DNA of 64,000 bases from Paludisphaera rhizosphaerae (GTDB taxonomy: Bacteria > Planctomycetota > Planctomycetia > Isosphaerales > Isosphaeraceae): contig NZ_JAALCR010000001.1 in assembly GCF_011065895.1 (NCBI RefSeq), forward strand, positions 186,001-250,000, written 5' to 3'. This document shows, piece by piece, positions 25,517-54,649 of this stretch; the first letter of the stretch is position 1; each line of letters starts with the position of its first letter. Under the pieces are notes generated by a model, which saw nothing but the letters and a program-made list of their open reading frames with translations, did not search any database and was not told the origin of the DNA. The translations under genes were made by a program, and so were the position numbers.

Positions 25517-27319
25517 ATGGGAAGCATGCGGAGTGGGTCCAGGAGGTCCGCCACGGCCCGGCGCAGTCGGTTCCGGGCGATCGAGACGCTGGAAACCCGG
25601 CAGCTGATGGCGTCAAACATCGCGAGCTACCTCTCGCCGTACATCCCGACGGACCTTTACGTCCGCAACCCGGAGACGGGCCAGAAGGAGTCCGTGTCCG
25701 CGGCCTCGCTCTACACTCACCACAACGTCAACGGCGCTCTGGTGAGCAACGAGGGGAAGATCGTCACCGGTAAGGACCGCGCCGGCGATGAGTGGACGAT
25801 CACCGTCCACGGCCCCGGCAAGGTCATCGTCACTGACACCACCCCGAACGACGGGGCCCTCGACGACGACATCGACACGATCCAGATCGTCGGCTCGAAT
25901 ATCAATTCGACCTATGTCACCGGCTCCACGTCCGCCTCGGTCCGCACGTTGACCGACGGGCTCGTCAACTTCAACCGGCTGATCGCGACCTCGGGGGTCA
26001 AGTCGGTCCAGCTCAACGGCTTCGATCTGACGAACCAAGTCTCGCCCGCGGTCTCCTCGACGACGGGGATCTACCTACTGGGCGGCGCTCGCTCGCTTGA
26101 GTTCCACGACATCGTGGGCCTGTTTGACACCGCCAATGGCGCGACGCCGATTCAGATTCAGATCGGCCAGGCCAACTACCCGTCGAACGTCAAGACGTCG
26201 ATCTATCTTGACTCGATCTACAACTCCGTCTTCGACTCGAACTCGACGACGATCCCGACCGACCCGATCACGTCCCCCTGGGTCCAGTTCACGGTCAACG
26301 GCGTTCTCCAGAACTTCAGCATTGTCTCGACGACCCAGTCTGCGGTCTCTCCGAACTACGTGGAGGCCTCGCAGCAAGGGACCGTCGACGTCTGGACGGG
26401 CGTGCCGGTGTCGGGCCCGGCTCCAGCCGCCTACCAGTTCTTTTACAACGTCGTGGGGACAACCGGTCGGACGTCGGTCCAGACCGTCTCCGTCGGCAAC
26501 CTCAAGGTCCGCGGCTCGGCTAAGAACTTCACCGTCCAACGCGACACCACGCCGTTCACGTCGTCGACGAGCGGCGTGAAGTCGATCCGCAACGCGGATT
26601 TCGGCGGCACGGCCGACGGCGTGGCCCTGGACGTTCAGGGAACGATCGGCCGACTACGGTTCCGTCGCGGCCTGGGCGATTCGAAGGGCGTCTTCACCTC
26701 CTCGACCCAGACGCCGTCGACCGACCAGAACTCCGAAACTCAGACCGTCTTGCTGCCCGCCACCAAGTACGGTTATCCACTCGGGTCGACGGGATACGCA
26801 GCCGACGGGCTGGTTTCTGGCGCCATCCGGGCTCGCCGGATCGGGTCGCTGAAAGCCACGGCCGCCAACGTCTCGTACGTCACGGCTCAGAATCCGGACT
26901 ACGTGTCGCTCCGTGGCGGCGGAACGCCGACCGTGACCTCCACCTTCGGCGACGCCATCACCAACTCGTCGATCACCACCACGGGTTCGATCGGCAGTGT
27001 TTCGGTCGATGGCAACCTGATCAACAGCAACGTGGCCTCGGGTTACGACTACCAGGCCCATCTCCAGGGCCTTTCAACCCTCCGTCAGCCCAGCCGGATC
27101 CGGTCGTACCGCCAGCGCGGCTCCCTGATCAACAGCCAGGTGACGGCCTCGACGACGCTGAACACGAACGGCTCCGTGACGTCGGCCGACATCGGCAACG
27201 GGTCGATCACCGGCCACGTTGACGGCAACGCCTACTCGACGGGCGGCCGCTCGGCGCTCGGGACCTACGGCGCGGGCGTGATCGCTCGGCGCAAGGTCGG
27301 CCGTCTGCCGGTCGGCTGA
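25517..27319 (+). CDS. Large exported surface protein with planctomycete LETRQLMA-type signal
   Basis: A 600-residue protein of unknown function. After a basic N-terminus (GSRRSATARRSRFRA) comes IETLETRQLMAS at residues 22-33, a form of the LExR-L-(L/M)-(S/A) motif found at the start of many large exported planctomycete proteins. The body is rich in Thr, Ser, Gly and Asn, with repeated beta-strand-like units such as GSIGSVSVDGNLINSNVASG and SADIGNGSITGHVDGN, and no cysteine-rich domains. This suggests an extended beta-helix or similar surface structure. No enzyme motif seen. The ATG at 25517 is preferred because of the GGGAAGGGAG site six bases before it. It is followed by a bidirectional terminator. 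Confidence 0.75.
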   Translation: MGSMRSGSRRSATARRSRFRAIETLETRQLMASNIASYLSPYIPTDLYVRNPETGQKESVSAASLYTHHNVNGALVSNEGKIVTGKDRAGDEWTITVHGPGKVIVTDTTPNDGALDDDIDTIQIVGSNINSTYVTGSTSASVRTLTDGLVNFNRLIATSGVKSVQLNGFDLTNQVSPAVSSTTGIYLLGGARSLEFHDIVGLFDTANGATPIQIQIGQANYPSNVKTSIYLDSIYNSVFDSNSTTIPTDPITSPWVQFTVNGVLQNFSIVSTTQSAVSPNYVEASQQGTVDVWTGVPVSGPAPAAYQFFYNVVGTTGRTSVQTVSVGNLKVRGSAKNFTVQRDTTPFTSSTSGVKSIRNADFGGTADGVALDVQGTIGRLRFRRGLGDSKGVFTSSTQTPSTDQNSETQTVLLPATKYGYPLGSTGYAADGLVSGAIRARRIGSLKATAANVSYVTAQNPDYVSLRGGGTPTVTSTFGDAITNSSITTTGSIGSVSVDGNLINSNVASGYDYQAHLQGLSTLRQPSRIRSYRQRGSLINSQVTASTTLNTNGSVTSADIGNGSITGHVDGNAYSTGGRSALGTYGAGVIARRKVGRLPVG

Positions 27320-48321: not shown

Positions 48322-49458
48322 TCACTTGTCGTACAGGTCGTCGATGTTGAAGCCGGGGGGGATCTGGTTGACCTGAATCGAGTGGGAGTCGCCCGGGACG
48401 TAGCCGCGATCTTCGTTGACGATGGTGCTCTGAACATCCTCCGGGTCGTCGGGCTCGACGAGGCGGGTCGGGAGCGGAGGTGCGGTGGTCGGCTTGGGTG
48501 TGGTGGGCCGAGGTCCGGAGACGCTCGGGATTCTCACCGTCGGCGGGCCGGGCGGTTTGGGGGGAGCCGTTGAGGCGGGAGCGGACAACGGGGCCGGCGG
48601 CGAGGCGGCCTCGGGTGTGGAGGTGGGAGCAGGAGTGGGATGAGCGTCCTTGGACGATTCCGAGGGCGGCAGCGAGGGCTGGGTGCGGGCGATTGAGGAC
48701 ATCGGCTTGTGAGAGTCCGACAGCAGGTGGCCGCCGTCGAAGCGCTCGCCGATGTAGTGGCGACGGACCTCGGCATTGTTGAGGATCTGCTCGCGGTCGC
48801 CGTAAGCAAAGACGCGGCCTTCACGGATGACGTAGCAGCGGTCGGTGACTTCCAGGGTCTCGCGGAACTGGTGGTCGGTGAGGAGGATCCCGATGTGGAA
48901 CGTGTCGACGAGGTCGCGGATCTGCTCCTGGATCTCGCCGACCGTCTTGGGGTCAATGCCCGCGAACGGCTCGTCGAGCATGATCAGCTTGGGGTCGGTG
49001 ATCAGAGCGCGAGCGATCTCGGTACGACGACGCTCGCCGCCGGAGACCATGTGGGCCTTCGTGTGGCGGATCTTGTTCAGGCCGAACCGATCCATCAGGT
49101 CGTTCAGGCGGTCCTTCTTCTGCTTGCGGGACATGTCCCGCCGCGTCTCCAGGATCGCCATCAGGTTCTGCTCGACGGTCAACTGGCGGAAGACGCTGGA
49201 GTCCTGGGCCAGATATCCCATCCCCGCGCGGGCGCGGAGGTACATCGGCAGCCGGGTGACGTCGCGGCCGTCGAAGACGACGGAGCCCCCGTCGGCGTCG
49301 ATCAGGCCGATCGTCATGCGGAAGCTCGTCGTCTTGCCCGCTCCGTTGGGGCCGAGAAGGCCGACGACCTCGCCCTGGTCGACGTCGAACTCGACGCCGT
49401 TGACCACCTGGCGACGGCCGTACCACTTCTCCAGGCCACGGACTTCCAGCAGGGCCAT
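48322..49458 (-). CDS. lptB: LptB-like ABC transporter ATPase with long C-terminal tail
   Basis: ATPase of the LPS export ABC transporter LptBFG. Walker A GPNGAGKTT is at residues 36-44, the Q-loop at YLAQDSSVF, signature MVSGGERRR (137-145), Walker B LIMLDEP (158-164) and switch LTDHQFRE with His195. AGMGYLAQDSSVFRQLTVEQ and the DPF-like region fit LptB rather than LivF-type proteins. The ABC core ends near residue 245; a tail of about 130 residues rich in Pro, Thr and Ser follows, with an ordered-looking end (GDSHSIQVNQIPPGFNIDDL). LptF, LptG and LptC are not in the window. It fits the LptD-like gene at 16465. Confidence 0.88.
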   Translation of the reverse strand: MALLEVRGLEKWYGRRQVVNGVEFDVDQGEVVGLLGPNGAGKTTSFRMTIGLIDADGGSVVFDGRDVTRLPMYLRARAGMGYLAQDSSVFRQLTVEQNLMAILETRRDMSRKQKKDRLNDLMDRFGLNKIRHTKAHMVSGGERRRTEIARALITDPKLIMLDEPFAGIDPKTVGEIQEQIRDLVDTFHIGILLTDHQFRETLEVTDRCYVIREGRVFAYGDREQILNNAEVRRHYIGERFDGGHLLSDSHKPMSSIARTQPSLPPSESSKDAHPTPAPTSTPEAASPPAPLSAPASTAPPKPPGPPTVRIPSVSGPRPTTPKPTTAPPLPTRLVEPDDPEDVQSTIVNEDRGYVPGDSHSIQVNQIPPGFNIDDLYDK

Positions 49459-49527: not shown

Positions 49528-51270
49528 TCACCGAATCCAGCGCATCCGCTCGAAGTACGGGCGGAAGGGGATCCGGAAGTCGCGGTTGCTGGTCAGGTTG
49601 GGACCGAACGGAACGCCGTGGGGCCAGTAGACGTAGAACGCCTTGCCGGTGACCAGGCTGCGAGGAACCTCCCAGGACTTGCGATCGAAGACGTCCCAGG
49701 CCCGGTCGCTCGAATCCCAGCCGCGGCTGTCCTTGCTCCGAGGGCTGTTGTCCCCCATCATCATGAACCGATCCGAGCCCAGCTCGTACTCCTCCTTGCC
49801 CACCTTCGCCAGGTTCGGGAACCGGGCAGGGTCGGAGAGGAAATCGAACAGCTCGGAAGGTCGCCGGGGCTCCCGATCATCCCAGACCGAGGCGTAATCG
49901 GTATAACCCGGCGTCTGGGTATAGTAGATATCGCGTTTCAGGACAAGGTCGCTCGCCGTGACGATTGCGCCTCGGGCGGAGATAGCCGCCGGCGAGAGAT
50001 CGGCCGAGGTGGGGACCGGGACCTCGTCCCCACGGTCGAACTCGGCACCCTGACCCCCGACGGCGCGACCGTCGATCAGCAGGGTCAGGCGGTCGTCGAC
50101 GTTCCCGAACTCCAGCCGACGCTTCCCAGCCCCGATCATGGGCGTGTCGAACTCAGCCAAGGTCTCCTCGCCCCGGACGAAGCGGCCCTTCCCGGTGCCG
50201 ACGTCGATTGCGGCGAAGTGTCGGACGCCCCCCTTGACCAGTTCCAGACGCACCTCTCCCTTCTCGGAGTGGACTTCCAGATCGGCCGCGAGGGTCAGGT
50301 CGCCGACCCAGTGCGGCTGAAGCCAGGCGTTTCGGGTGTCGCCCCGGGTCTGGGTCAGGTCGGAGTTCTCGGCGGGCAGGTTGGTGTTGTACGAGTAAAA
50401 GTCGGTAATCAGGGTCGCCCGGGGAGGATGGGTCGGAGTCCGATCGTTGAGGAGCGCCTCCCATTGTTCGGGCTCGGCGACCAGGTGGCGATATCGGAGG
50501 TCCGACCAGTCCTCCGTCGGCTTTTCGATCCTGTAGATACTCTTGCCCGGCTCGACAACCGCCCAGCCCTGTTCGGCCGGGCTCCAGCGTCGCCATTCGG
50601 CGCGGTCGCGCAGGGAACGGGCCTGATGGGCGTCTTCGTAGACGGCGATCTGCATGCTCCGGAGGTGGTCCATCGGCTTGCGCTGGAGCTTGAATTCGGA
50701 GCCGTCCGGGGGCTTGATGTAGATGTCGCCGTGATGGACGCGAATGGTCTCGCCGGGGAGGCCGATGAGCCGCTTGATGTAGCTGACCTCGGGCTCTTCG
50801 GGGTATCGGAAGACGACGACGTCGAACCGTTCCGGCGGCGAGGCCCCGGGAAGGAACGGCAGGTCGTAGGGGAACATCGAGACCAGGATCCGGTCCCCCT
50901 TGTAGCTGGGTTCGGCGTCGAGTCGGGTCGTCTGGTTGCGGCAGTTGACGCAAACCCCGGAGTAGACGGAGCGCAGCGGTCCGAAGCCCTCGATCTCCTC
51001 CGAAGCGTTCACGGCGAAGGTGAAGCCGCACTGGGGGCAAGTCACCTCCTTGTGCCGGCCCATGAGCGTGGGGGCCATCGAACCCGTTGGGATGACGAAA
51101 GCCTGGGCCTCGAAGCCCCGGACGAGGAGGGCGGCCACCGCGGCGACGACGAGGGCCTCAACGGTCTCCCGGAGGCTGTCGCTGGAGCGTTTGGCCGGCT
51201 GGGAGTCGAGGGTTCCCGGAGCCGGGCGAGCGGCGGTGGGGGCAGGGTTCGAGGCGGCGGTCCGTCCCAT
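49528..51270 (-). CDS. lepB: Signal peptidase I, enlarged, with zinc ribbon and beta-rich insertion
   Basis: A 580-residue type I signal peptidase, about twice the usual length. One helix (about 36-52) precedes PTGSMAPTLMG with nucleophile Ser64. A four-Cys zinc-ribbon-like insertion follows (CPQC at 78-81, CVNC at 107-110). The general base is Lys166 in YIKRLIGLPGE, and box E is MMGDNSPRSKDSRGW near the C-terminus. Between them lie roughly 300 extra residues with beta-sandwich character (DLEVHSEKGEVRLELVKGG, LEFGNVDDRLTLLIDG). The Ser/Lys pair is intact, so it should be active. Start ATG 51270 is chosen over a longer frame with low-complexity lead. A paralogue follows upstream, 67 bp away. 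Confidence 0.92.
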   Translation of the reverse strand: MGRTAASNPAPTAARPAPGTLDSQPAKRSSDSLRETVEALVVAAVAALLVRGFEAQAFVIPTGSMAPTLMGRHKEVTCPQCGFTFAVNASEEIEGFGPLRSVYSGVCVNCRNQTTRLDAEPSYKGDRILVSMFPYDLPFLPGASPPERFDVVVFRYPEEPEVSYIKRLIGLPGETIRVHHGDIYIKPPDGSEFKLQRKPMDHLRSMQIAVYEDAHQARSLRDRAEWRRWSPAEQGWAVVEPGKSIYRIEKPTEDWSDLRYRHLVAEPEQWEALLNDRTPTHPPRATLITDFYSYNTNLPAENSDLTQTRGDTRNAWLQPHWVGDLTLAADLEVHSEKGEVRLELVKGGVRHFAAIDVGTGKGRFVRGEETLAEFDTPMIGAGKRRLEFGNVDDRLTLLIDGRAVGGQGAEFDRGDEVPVPTSADLSPAAISARGAIVTASDLVLKRDIYYTQTPGYTDYASVWDDREPRRPSELFDFLSDPARFPNLAKVGKEEYELGSDRFMMMGDNSPRSKDSRGWDSSDRAWDVFDRKSWEVPRSLVTGKAFYVYWPHGVPFGPNLTSNRDFRIPFRPYFERMRWIR

Positions 51271-51337
51271 GTGATTCGGGTCTCGTGGGCGGTGGGTGGT
51301 GGGCTGTCCCAGCCGGCATTGGGTGCGGGAGGGGCCG

Positions 51338-52786
51338 TTAGTGAATGTAACGAATTCGCCGAGGATCCGGAATCCAATACAACGATCGGCCGAAGACCTC
51401 AAGCGAGACGACCCGGCCGGGAAGATGCACGAGAAACGGCTTTCCCAGGAACAACTCGCGCCGGACGACCGGGCCCTGCGGCCAGAACCGCGAGTCGTTC
51501 GAGACCGGGCTGTTGTCGCCGAGGACGAAGTATTCCCCGTCCTTCAAAGGGTACGCCTCCAGGACGCCGTTCGGCCGCCGATTCGCGAGGTTCTGGGCGT
51601 TCGTGTAGTAGACGTCGCGATAGACCTTCAACTCCGGGACCAGCAGCGAGCCTCCCCGAACGCCCAGGGCGATCGGCGATTCGTCGTTCCAGGGGGAGTC
51701 GGTCGGGTCGTCGTAGTCGAGCGGCTCGAACAGGAGCGAGCCGTCGACGCTCGCCAGCAGACGGCCGTCAAAGATCGAGGCTTCCACGGTATGCGGGGCC
51801 TCGGAATGGGCCATCGGGTTGGACCTCACGAAGACCTTCTGCAAGGATCCATTGCGGGTCACCTCGACTGGTCCGTCGACCCCGACCGGAATCCGGACGA
51901 CGAAGCGATCGCCCGCCGACCGAAGGCTCAGCGCGATCGATTGGACGCCCGGGCCAGGCTGCACGCGGGCTTCCAGGCCGACGTCATGAACGGGGTTGTC
52001 GGAGCGGCCGTCGGCTCCGTTGTAGCCGTAGTAGTCACGAATCGGGGCGTAACGCTCGAGCGAAGGGTCCCAGTTTCGATAGACGACCCAGTCGTCGGCG
52101 TCGGAGGTTCCACTCGCCGGGTCGTGACGGAAGCCCTCGGGCGTCCGGCTCCAGCCGGTGGCCTCGGGGCGGAGCGAGGCCCCTCTGCGATACGACCAGC
52201 GCGGGTAACGGTCGGAGTCGGCTGGGGAGTACCGGCTGTCGTGGACCAGGATCCGCATGGCGCGGACGTCTTCCAACCGCTTCTTCGCCGGCTCGCCGTC
52301 GATCCAGACGTCGCCGCGGACGATCCGAACCGACTCGCCCGGGAGGCCCACCACGCGTTTGACGTAAGCCTGCGAGGGGTCGCCGGGATAGTGGAAGACG
52401 GCGACCTCCCAGCGCTCCGGAGCGCGGAAGTCGTAGAGGAACTTCTGAACCAGCACCCGGTCGCCGTTGCAGGCCACGACGGGGAGATCGTCGAAGCCGG
52501 CGCGGCCGCAGTTGGGGCAGGCCGGCCGCGGCAGCGGCGACTCGTCGTCCAGCCCGACGTCGAAGACGAACTTGCAGTTAGGGCAAGTCAACTCGCGGTG
52601 GTGGCCCAGCAGCGTCGGGGCCATCGAGCCCGTGGGGACCACGTAGGCCTCGGCCGAGAAGGTTCGGAACAGCAGGACGCCGACGCAAAGCGCCACCAGC
52701 AGCTCCACCGTCTGGCGCAGAACGCCCGGAGCCGACGCGTCGTCGACTTCGGGCGAGACTGGGCTGATGGTGGGCGTGTCGTCCAT
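51338..52786 (-). CDS. lepB: Second signal peptidase I with zinc ribbon and insertion
   Basis: A 482-residue paralogue of the neighbouring signal peptidase. One helix (ELLVALCVGVLLFRTF) leads to PTGSMAPTLLG with Ser54. Four cysteines form the ribbon (CPNC at 68-71, CPNC at 90-93). Lys143 lies in YVKRVVGLPGE, and the final box is VLGDNSPVSNDSRFWP. The insertion is shorter and different in sequence (VQSIALSLRSAGDRFVVRIP, HTVEASIFDGRLLASVDG). Both copies keep catalytic residues, so the pair may divide substrates. lepA lies directly upstream, as signal peptidase follows lepA in many bacteria. Confidence 0.92.
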   Translation of the reverse strand: MDDTPTISPVSPEVDDASAPGVLRQTVELLVALCVGVLLFRTFSAEAYVVPTGSMAPTLLGHHRELTCPNCKFVFDVGLDDESPLPRPACPNCGRAGFDDLPVVACNGDRVLVQKFLYDFRAPERWEVAVFHYPGDPSQAYVKRVVGLPGESVRIVRGDVWIDGEPAKKRLEDVRAMRILVHDSRYSPADSDRYPRWSYRRGASLRPEATGWSRTPEGFRHDPASGTSDADDWVVYRNWDPSLERYAPIRDYYGYNGADGRSDNPVHDVGLEARVQPGPGVQSIALSLRSAGDRFVVRIPVGVDGPVEVTRNGSLQKVFVRSNPMAHSEAPHTVEASIFDGRLLASVDGSLLFEPLDYDDPTDSPWNDESPIALGVRGGSLLVPELKVYRDVYYTNAQNLANRRPNGVLEAYPLKDGEYFVLGDNSPVSNDSRFWPQGPVVRRELFLGKPFLVHLPGRVVSLEVFGRSLYWIPDPRRIRYIH

Positions 52787-52843: not shown

Positions 52844-54649
52844 TCAATCCTCGCTGTCGTCGAGGACCGAGAGGAAGGCCTCCTGGGAGATCTCCACGTT
52901 CCCCACCTGCTTCATACGCTTCTTGCCTTCTTTTTGCTTTTCGAGGAGCTTCCGTTTCCGCGAAATGTCGCCGCCGTAGCACTTGGCGGTGACGTTCTTC
53001 CGCAGAGCGGAGATCGTCTCGCGGGCGACCACCCGACTTCCGATGGCGGCCTGGATGGCGACCTCGAACTGGTGCCGGTCGATCTCACCCCGGAGCTTCT
53101 TGACCAGCTTGCGGCCGCGGCGGTCGGCGTGGGCGCGGTGGACGACGATCGAGAGTGCGTCGACCTTCTGGCCGGCCACCAGGATGTCGAGCCGACAGAG
53201 GTCGTCGGCCCGGAATCCCATCAGCTCGTAGTCCATCGTGCCGTAGCCGCGAGTGGCGCTTTTGAGCTTGTCGTAGAGGTCGTAGATCATCTCGGCCATC
53301 GGCAGTTCGTACGTCAAGATGGCGCGGGAGGACGAGAGGTACTCGGTCTTGATGTAGGTCCCGCGGCGATCCTCGCAGAGCTGCATGATCGCGCCGATGT
53401 TTTCGGTCGGCAGGATGAAATTGATCTTGGCGATGGGCTCGCGGAACTCCTCGATGTCGCCCGGATCGGGAATGCGGGTCGGGTTCGAGATGTGGAGCGT
53501 CACGCCCTTCTTGGTCAGGATCTCATAGGTGACGTTCGGGGCCGTTTGGACGAGGGCGAGGTTGCTCTCTCGTTCGAGCCGCTGCTGGACGATCTCCATG
53601 TGGAGCATGCCCAGGAAGCCGCAGCGGAAGCCGAACCCCAGCGCGTCGGAAGTCTCCGGCTCGAAGGTGAAACTGCAATCGTTGAGCGCGAGCTTCTGGA
53701 GGGCCGTGCGCAGGTCGTCGAACTGATTGTGCGAGGCCGGGAAAAGGCCGCAGAAGACGACCTGGACGGGCTCTTCATAGCCCGGGAGGGCCTCGGCCGC
53801 CGGGTGGGGGACCTGGGTGATTGTGTCGCCGATGCGGACGTCCGAGAGCTGCTTGATGTTGGCGACGACGTAGCCGACCTGGCCGACGCCCAAATCCTGA
53901 CAGGCGACCTCGCGAGGTCGGAACCGGCCCAGACCGATGACGTCGTGATCGGTTCCGCCAGCCATAAGCCGGATCTTCTGGCCGACCTTCAAAACGCCGT
54001 CGACGACGCGGACGTAGACGACGACGCCCTGATAGTCGTCGAACTTCGAGTCGAAGATGAGGGCTCGCAGGGGCTTGGTTGGATCGCCGGAAGGGGGCGG
54101 GACGCGTTCGATGATCGCCTTGAAGAGATCGGTGACGCCCACGCCGGTCTTGCCGCTGACGGCGAGAACCTCGCTCGGATCGATTCCGAGCGTGGTCATG
54201 ATCTCTTCCTTGATCTCATCGGGCCGAGCCGCCTGCATGTCGATCTTGTTGAGCGCCGGAACGATGGCGAGGTCGCTGGCGACTGCAAGGTAGGCGTTGG
54301 CGACGGTCTGCGCCTGGACGCCCTGGGTGGAGTCGACGAGGAGGATGGCGCCCTCGCAGGCGGCGAGCGAGCGGGAGACCTCGTAGTGGAAGTCGACGTG
54401 ACCCGGGGTGTCGATCAGGTTCAGCTCGTACGTCTGCCCTTCAAGGACGTAGTTGATCGCGACCGCGCGGGCCTTGATGGTGATGCCCCGTTCGCGCTCC
54501 AGGTCCATGTCGTCCAGGAGCTGCTCGCGGAATTCGCGCTGGCTGATCGCCCCGGACTGGAGCAGGATCTGGTCGGCCAGAGTGCTCTTGCCGTGGTCGA
54601 TGTGGGCGACGATGGAGAAATTACGGATGTACTTGGGGTCGAAGGCCAT
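52844..54649 (-). CDS. lepA: Translation elongation factor 4 (LepA)
   Basis: A ribosomal GTPase of 601 residues that acts on stalled or initiating ribosomes. G1 is AHIDHGKSTLADQILLQ, G3 DTPGHVDFHYEVSRSLA, and G4 NKIDMQAARPD. The EF-4 specific C-terminal domain ends with YGGDISRKRKLLEKQKEGKK. The normal start is MAFDPKYIRNFSIVAHIDHG. It is followed by the two signal peptidase genes on the same strand, repeating the lepA-lepB order known from enterobacteria. Confidence 0.96.
   Translation of the reverse strand: MAFDPKYIRNFSIVAHIDHGKSTLADQILLQSGAISQREFREQLLDDMDLERERGITIKARAVAINYVLEGQTYELNLIDTPGHVDFHYEVSRSLAACEGAILLVDSTQGVQAQTVANAYLAVASDLAIVPALNKIDMQAARPDEIKEEIMTTLGIDPSEVLAVSGKTGVGVTDLFKAIIERVPPPSGDPTKPLRALIFDSKFDDYQGVVVYVRVVDGVLKVGQKIRLMAGGTDHDVIGLGRFRPREVACQDLGVGQVGYVVANIKQLSDVRIGDTITQVPHPAAEALPGYEEPVQVVFCGLFPASHNQFDDLRTALQKLALNDCSFTFEPETSDALGFGFRCGFLGMLHMEIVQQRLERESNLALVQTAPNVTYEILTKKGVTLHISNPTRIPDPGDIEEFREPIAKINFILPTENIGAIMQLCEDRRGTYIKTEYLSSSRAILTYELPMAEMIYDLYDKLKSATRGYGTMDYELMGFRADDLCRLDILVAGQKVDALSIVVHRAHADRRGRKLVKKLRGEIDRHQFEVAIQAAIGSRVVARETISALRKNVTAKCYGGDISRKRKLLEKQKEGKKRMKQVGNVEISQEAFLSVLDDSED

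Follow-up and report, generated by a model that had tools for sequence, protein, structure and literature searches.

Tandem type I signal peptidases of Planctomycetota with a predicted jelly-roll domain II and a putative four-cysteine ribbon

Escherichia coli LepB, a type I signal peptidase (SPase; MEROPS S26A; TIGR02227, PF10502), is the closest described counterpart of a tandem pair of enzymes, here called SPase A and SPase B, encoded in the planctomycete Paludisphaera rhizosphaerae. The pair lies within the window analysed here, a 64,000-nucleotide stretch (positions 186,001 to 250,000 of contig NZ_JAALCR010000001.1, assembly GCF_011065895.1) in whose own coordinates all window features are given. 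A and B share with LepB the Ser-Lys dyad, boxes B to E, the catalytic fold and a predicted N-terminal helix, and their insertion between boxes D and E resembles LepB domain II. LepB-type domain II is described as variable in size and without conserved motifs (PMC4049620), a variability that fits a jelly roll at this place. Unlike LepB, the pair is arranged as tandem paralogues, each with a single predicted N-terminal helix, a predicted jelly roll of about 220-250 residues as domain II and, between boxes B and C, an added four-cysteine (C4) ribbon. Concanavalin-A-like domains (CBM66, ERGIC-53, the galactocerebrosidase C-terminal domain) have a fold like that predicted for the insertion (Z 12-14), but the insertions are only about 8-17% identical to them and are set inside a protease. 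With Pfam zinc ribbons (Zn_ribbon_4, Zn_ribbon_8 and similar families) the pair shares two CxxC knuckles, short strands and all-or-none loss of the cysteines; in contrast to these families, the window copies fall below every cut-off and, by LepB topology, would lie outside the cytoplasm, beside a protease catalytic motif. Streptococcus pyogenes SipA shares the S26 fold and differs from A and B, in which the dyad is intact.

The window encodes two complete signal peptidases. A sequence-only reading of this DNA had proposed tandem SPases 3' of lepA, and both minus-strand open reading frames (ORFs) are found at the coordinates first noted, between lepA and lptB:

51338-52786, minus strand, SPase A, a type I signal peptidase (S26) of 482 aa directly 3' of lepA (ORF, Pfam, predicted model)
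52625-52627, minus strand, A catalytic Ser54 (box B, GSM), invariant in 32/32 A rows, position calculated from the residue number
52358-52360, minus strand, A catalytic Lys143 (box D), invariant in 32/32 A rows
49528-51270, minus strand, SPase B, 580 aa from its likely start (ORF, Pfam, predicted model)
51079-51081, minus strand, B catalytic Ser64 (box B), invariant in 44/44 B rows
50773-50775, minus strand, B catalytic Lys166 (box D), invariant in 44/44 B rows

Both match Pfam Peptidase_S26 (A 9.3e-32, B 2.4e-28), PF10502 (A 110.7 bits, B 99.7 bits; cut-off 22.9) and TIGR02227 (A 97, B 82.6; cut-off 47). The reading frame of B continues up to 51402, which would give 624 aa, and there overlaps the end of A; the likely start at 51270 corresponds to M45 of the ORF, and B homologues in several relatives are 574-582 aa long. 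The Ser-Lys dyad, which the earlier reading had also noted, is invariant among the homologues collected from the class Planctomycetia: the serine of box B and the lysine of box D are present in 78/78 of them, in both copies (rows from the window and 41 class loci, taken at BLAST scores above 60 bits). Within the genus both genes are under purifying selection, with a ratio of non-synonymous to synonymous substitution rates (dN/dS) of about 0.19-0.32. Structure models were built from alignments of the window and named-record relatives only (A 32 rows, B 44 rows) and reached a mean predicted local distance difference test score (pLDDT) of 86.6 for A and 84.9 for B, with a predicted template modelling score (pTM) of 0.85 each. 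In these models the A core aligns with LepB 3s04 at Z 16.5 (146 aligned, 2.6 Å, 36% identity) and the B core with LepB at Z 11.8 (169 aligned, 4.2 Å). A single long helix is predicted ahead of box B (residues 22-43 in A, 30-54 in B), as read from the models rather than from a topology program.

Domain II of both copies is predicted to be a concanavalin-A-like jelly roll. The insertion lies between boxes D and E, at the place of the size-variable LepB domain II, and from the Lys-Arg pair to GDN A counts 280 residues and B 340:

51605-52261, minus strand, A concanavalin-A-like jelly-roll insertion, about residues 176-394 (VIA-align on predicted model)
49921-50658, minus strand, B concanavalin-A-like jelly-roll insertion, about residues 205-450 (VIA-align and Foldseek on predicted model)

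VIA-align matched the modelled A insertion to ERGIC-53 (Z 13.8, 168 aligned, 3.4 Å) and CBM66 (Z 12.8, 150 aligned, 3.2 Å) and the B insertion to a galactocerebrosidase domain (Z 14.0, 168 aligned, 3.6 Å) and CBM66 (Z 12.9, 152 aligned, 3.0 Å); matches to these three span Z 12.3-14.0 over both insertions. CBM66 was also the best Foldseek match of the B insertion (E 4.3e-8). Pfam gave no consistent match to the insertion among 76 rows, with one B row matching GLEYA at E 0.0076. The beta-sandwich proposed from sequence is thus recovered by fold searches of the models, which in both copies show an ordered jelly roll and not disordered sequence. The accompanying claim that the two insertions differ strongly holds for their sequences, but they share one predicted fold and align as profiles (hhalign, E 5.4e-45). 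Insertions taken from 46 large SPases outside the class likewise align with that of A (E 6.6e-32) and of B (E 6e-29), and together these alignments argue for one homologous domain that is widely inherited in the phylum.

A C4 ribbon follows the catalytic serine motif, and its cysteines occur together or not at all. The motifs of the ribbon are CPNC..CPNC (A) and CPQC..CVNC (B):

52508-52585, minus strand, A ribbon C68-C71...C90-C93 between boxes B and C, invariant in 32/32 A rows, predicted strands 63-67 and 74-78
50941-51039, minus strand, B ribbon C78-C81...C107-C110 between boxes B and C, invariant in 44/44 B rows, predicted strands 73-77, 84-88 and 102-106

Its conservation in relatives, a check that the sequence-only reading had called for, is borne out in the class, where 74/78 homologues have all four cysteines and the remaining 4/78, all B copies (L052, L069, L070, L072), have none. 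In a phylum set of 119 rows, 72 have the C4 ribbon, 5 have eight cysteines, 11 have a cysteine-less loop of 49-68 aa and 31 (counting the fragment L283) have no loop; a single CxxC knuckle occurs in 0/119. Cysteine-less rows retain the loop, often with TGY or TG in place of CG. The three ribbon states require at least 9 changes on the tree of these rows. Since the cysteines are lost together with the dyad left intact, and cysteine-less loops also occur in other classes, any bound metal is probably structural, and the putative metal site would hold the module together and have no catalytic part. A few A and B relatives give weak matches to Pfam ribbon families.

Ribbon and insertion are distributed across the phylum Planctomycetota, and the sequences indicate that the ribbon was gained or lost several times. 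Restriction of the ribbon to the class Planctomycetia was considered when 0/46 large SPases of other classes had one and was dropped when ribbons were found outside the class; those 46 came from high-scoring Pfam matches and are not representative of the phylum. A ribbon model matched in 241/392 genomes, which is an overcount as ribbonless SPases also match it partly (E 1e-3 to 1e-5). The 48 newer rows of the 119-row set (including L231 and L238) were nearly all chosen for scoring and give no phylum frequency. The eight-cysteine rows carry a double ribbon after box B (L291, L292 and L306 of family f48, L295 of f102, L311 of f65). Where the box B ribbon is missing, some SPases carry cysteine pairs, of the CxxC kind or looser, at other loops: between boxes C and D in L189, L195, L209 and L221 and within the jelly-roll insertion in L193 and L206. 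These pairs could represent independent ribbon gains. A 340-aa SPase in genome G054 (L230:236-1258) combines extra N-terminal hydrophobic stretches and a ribbon-like region with no jelly-roll-sized insertion.

By phylogeny the pair goes back to one old duplication, no later than the class ancestor. In the 119-row tree B rows form a clade (99, starred) and A and B together separate from the 77 other rows at 91, excepting fragment L283, which fills 19% of columns and whose placement was not used; L051_5314, labelled A by BLAST, falls in the B clade. Before this tree was built 21 rows were removed by hand (long branches, near-copies), and an earlier tree took 26 of 42 class sources. Outside the class, further tandem pairs group within their own family at starred branches in f80 (96), f25 (96), f12 (99), f31 (99), f24 (100), f46 (100) and, in the earlier tree, f33 (95), and at unstarred ones in f9 (L290, 90) and f49 (91). 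It seems that about ten tandem duplications, A/B included, took place at the locus across the phylum.

The pair is kept in place within the family and its losses fall on A. The order lepA-A-B-lptB is found in 18/19 family genomes, and the remaining one, G010, has the halves on separate contigs; this answers the question of whether the pairing is conserved. Among 20 other class loci, the full order is kept in 4 and A adjoins B in 15. At 79 named-record loci with B, an SPase is found upstream in 56; 16 have none although over 3 kb is available, and 7 are too short, so that A is missing at 16/72 readable loci. These loci were selected by likeness to B: the constancy of B there follows from the selection, and loss of B could not appear (one locus of 80, L155, is without B). 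Upstream SPases without the C4 ribbon number 5/57, of which L099, L118 and L135 start after box B and are incomplete and L141 and L151 count. The latter are minimal A copies without ribbon and insertion, of 182 residues in Botrimarina colliarenosi (L141, 5788-6336) and 236 residues in Adhaeretor mobilis (L151, 5035-5745). Genome G041 (97% complete) carries B alone. The argument from retention is drawn from the absences of A and from G041.

The substrate pockets of A and B differ steadily across the class. We number pocket positions as in E. coli, taking the catalytic serine there to be Ser90. A review numbers it Ser91 (PMC9360617). After removal of 11 duplicates, 106 B and 81 A proteins were counted (112 and 86 before), and the pocket was unreadable in 18 proteins (9 A, 8 B, 1 other). 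All 106 B proteins have Ile86, Pro87 and Ile144, and 103 have Phe84. A proteins have Val144 in 74 cases, Tyr84 in 61, Val86 in 41, Ile86 in 37 and Pro87 in 34. The residues thus indicate an E. coli-like pocket in B and a shifted one in A, with mostly Val for Ile144. The old A/B split, the one-sided loss and these pocket differences support a division of labour in general, as had been suggested from the two genes of the window.

Both neighbours of the pair are conserved. By the ORF list and profile matches, lepA, A, B and an lptB-like ATPase gene follow one another on the minus strand, in one direction and with short gaps:

52844-54649, minus strand, lepA, conserved upstream neighbour (Pfam LepA_C 1.3e-48; synteny)
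48322-49458, minus strand, lptB-like ATPase, conserved downstream neighbour with a low-complexity C-terminal tail (TIGR04406, 329 bits, cut-off 240; synteny)

The tail of the ATPase (48322-48738) is rich in Pro, Ala and Thr and extends about 138 residues past the LptB domain. A scan for promoters and terminators found 0 promoter-like sites and 1 terminator-like site, which is not above shuffled sequences and thus uninformative. A third, B-like SPase is encoded on another contig of the same genome, in a gene run at L316:6694-11678. In 4/4 genomes of the genus (G000-G003; L316-L319) this third copy is followed by a sigma factor of the extracytoplasmic function (ECF) type together with an anti-sigma-like protein and a sulfatase, the last lying about 3.8 kb further on from the run in G003. 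This arrangement suggests a conditionally expressed peptidase.

From the architecture, homology, conservation, synteny and loss pattern observed here we infer activity, zinc binding and specificity for the pair: A and B are probably both working, membrane-anchored signal peptidases with a jelly-roll domain II and a structural C4 ribbon, B being the housekeeping enzyme and A a specialised copy. They would trim signal peptides off exported proteins at the outer face of the cytoplasmic membrane by means of the Ser-Lys dyad. Domain II would have become a concanavalin-A-like jelly roll, and the loop between boxes B and C, adjoining the catalytic serine motif in sequence, would hold a putative zinc ribbon with a structural role. 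One duplication in or before the planctomycetial ancestor would have produced the pair, since kept in the lepA-A-B-lptB run, and the altered S1/S3 region of A would probably shift its cleavage-site preference. Several points weigh against this account. The phylogeny uses quick trees that carry no bootstrap values, in which the A branches are long and some branches are unstarred. The window ribbons matched no Pfam ribbon family above its curated cut-off (Zn_ribbon_4, 12.9 bits for A and 12.8 for B; cut-off 30.3). Positions 84, 86, 87 and 144 are assigned to the S1/S3 region by analogy with E. coli work. Val144 is not unique to A, as among 45 readable SPases from other classes 31 carry Ile144 and 13 Val144.

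This last point, Val144 being the main mark of A, also favours plain redundancy, in which both copies would serve one function, the second gene would supply dosage or backup and the pocket would have diverged by drift. The two copies share neighbourhood and architecture, both are under purifying selection, and G041 lives with B alone. Yet A and B stay distinct across the class, with B uniform at three pocket positions in 106/106 and A mostly different, and loss is one-sided (the 16/72 loci with no SPase upstream of B, though chosen by likeness to B, and the two minimal A genes), so that we regard redundancy as a rather unlikely, if serious, alternative. That one copy is a processing-dead member of the SipA type is scarcely credible, as both copies keep Ser and Lys and the dyad stands in 78/78 rows; such S26 members do exist, S. 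pyogenes SipA being described as signal-peptidase-like (PMC4049620). The jelly roll could further act as a genuine lectin, anchoring the peptidase to polysaccharide of the envelope or to substrates that carry glycans. In structure the modelled insertions come closest mostly to carbohydrate-binding or carbohydrate-active domains (CBM66, ERGIC-53, legume lectins, galectins), and lptB, encoding the ATPase of lipopolysaccharide export, adjoins the pair. A shared fold alone, however, shows no function, concanavalin-A-like domains often bind no sugar and the insertion is common to lineages with differing neighbour genes, and we consider a lectin unlikely. Decidedly unlikely, too, is a more elaborate arrangement in which SPase I has been rebuilt as a regulated, glycan-aware station, with the jelly roll reading envelope sugars, the ribbon serving as a switch, by zinc or by redox state, close to the active site and the duplicates applying different cleavage rules to different export classes.

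The sequence-only reading had tentatively assigned ordinary signal peptides to one copy and long basic signals of the LExR type to the other, which we now judge very unlikely. The motif was followed with LEPR-8K (NF012209), a short model of 24 positions that is a weak and insensitive detector; at E 0.03, the threshold of the phylum count, 44/392 genomes had matches, each with a match above the family cut-off, and a stricter search at E 0.001, positive in 13/58 relative genomes, is too strict for such a model. LEPR-type matches occur in the P. rhizosphaerae genome itself, and a plus-strand frame near 25589 of the window has LETRQLMAS after a basic N-terminus, an N-terminus of the LExR type. Matches are commoner in the class (12/40 genomes vs 32/352 outside; Fisher p 0.0005, kinship not corrected), which slightly raises the odds of this assignment, and in a smaller sample 8/9 genomes with ribbon or loop and 0/6 ribbonless ones had a match above the cut-off. 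On the other side, 32/44 positive genomes come from outside the class that has A and B; G268, richest in LEPR matches with 21, has one ribbon SPase match; B-only G041 still has one match above the cut-off; and 8/44 positive genomes (G062, G087, G107, G109, G128, G205, G210, G278) belong to families whose SPases, as read, lack the box B ribbon (f11, f32, f36, f38, f49, f81). The motif does not need the A/B pair, nor, it seems, the ribbon, and its presence without A or the pair leaves its assignment to one copy unsupported. Some link of the motif with lineage or with the ribbon may exist.

The pair thus represents a known enzyme with a conserved architecture of which we found no account among the titles and abstract openings that our searches of the open-licence PMC literature returned. 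SPase I is an essential enzyme, and most structural knowledge of it comes from LepB and SpsB. Here, in a phylum with unusual envelopes, its variable domain is a predicted jelly roll, a ribbon stands beside the catalytic motif and the gene seems to have been duplicated in place about ten times. The role of domain II becomes testable by comparison, and the duplicates offer natural pairs for reading how a signal peptidase alters its cleavage preference.

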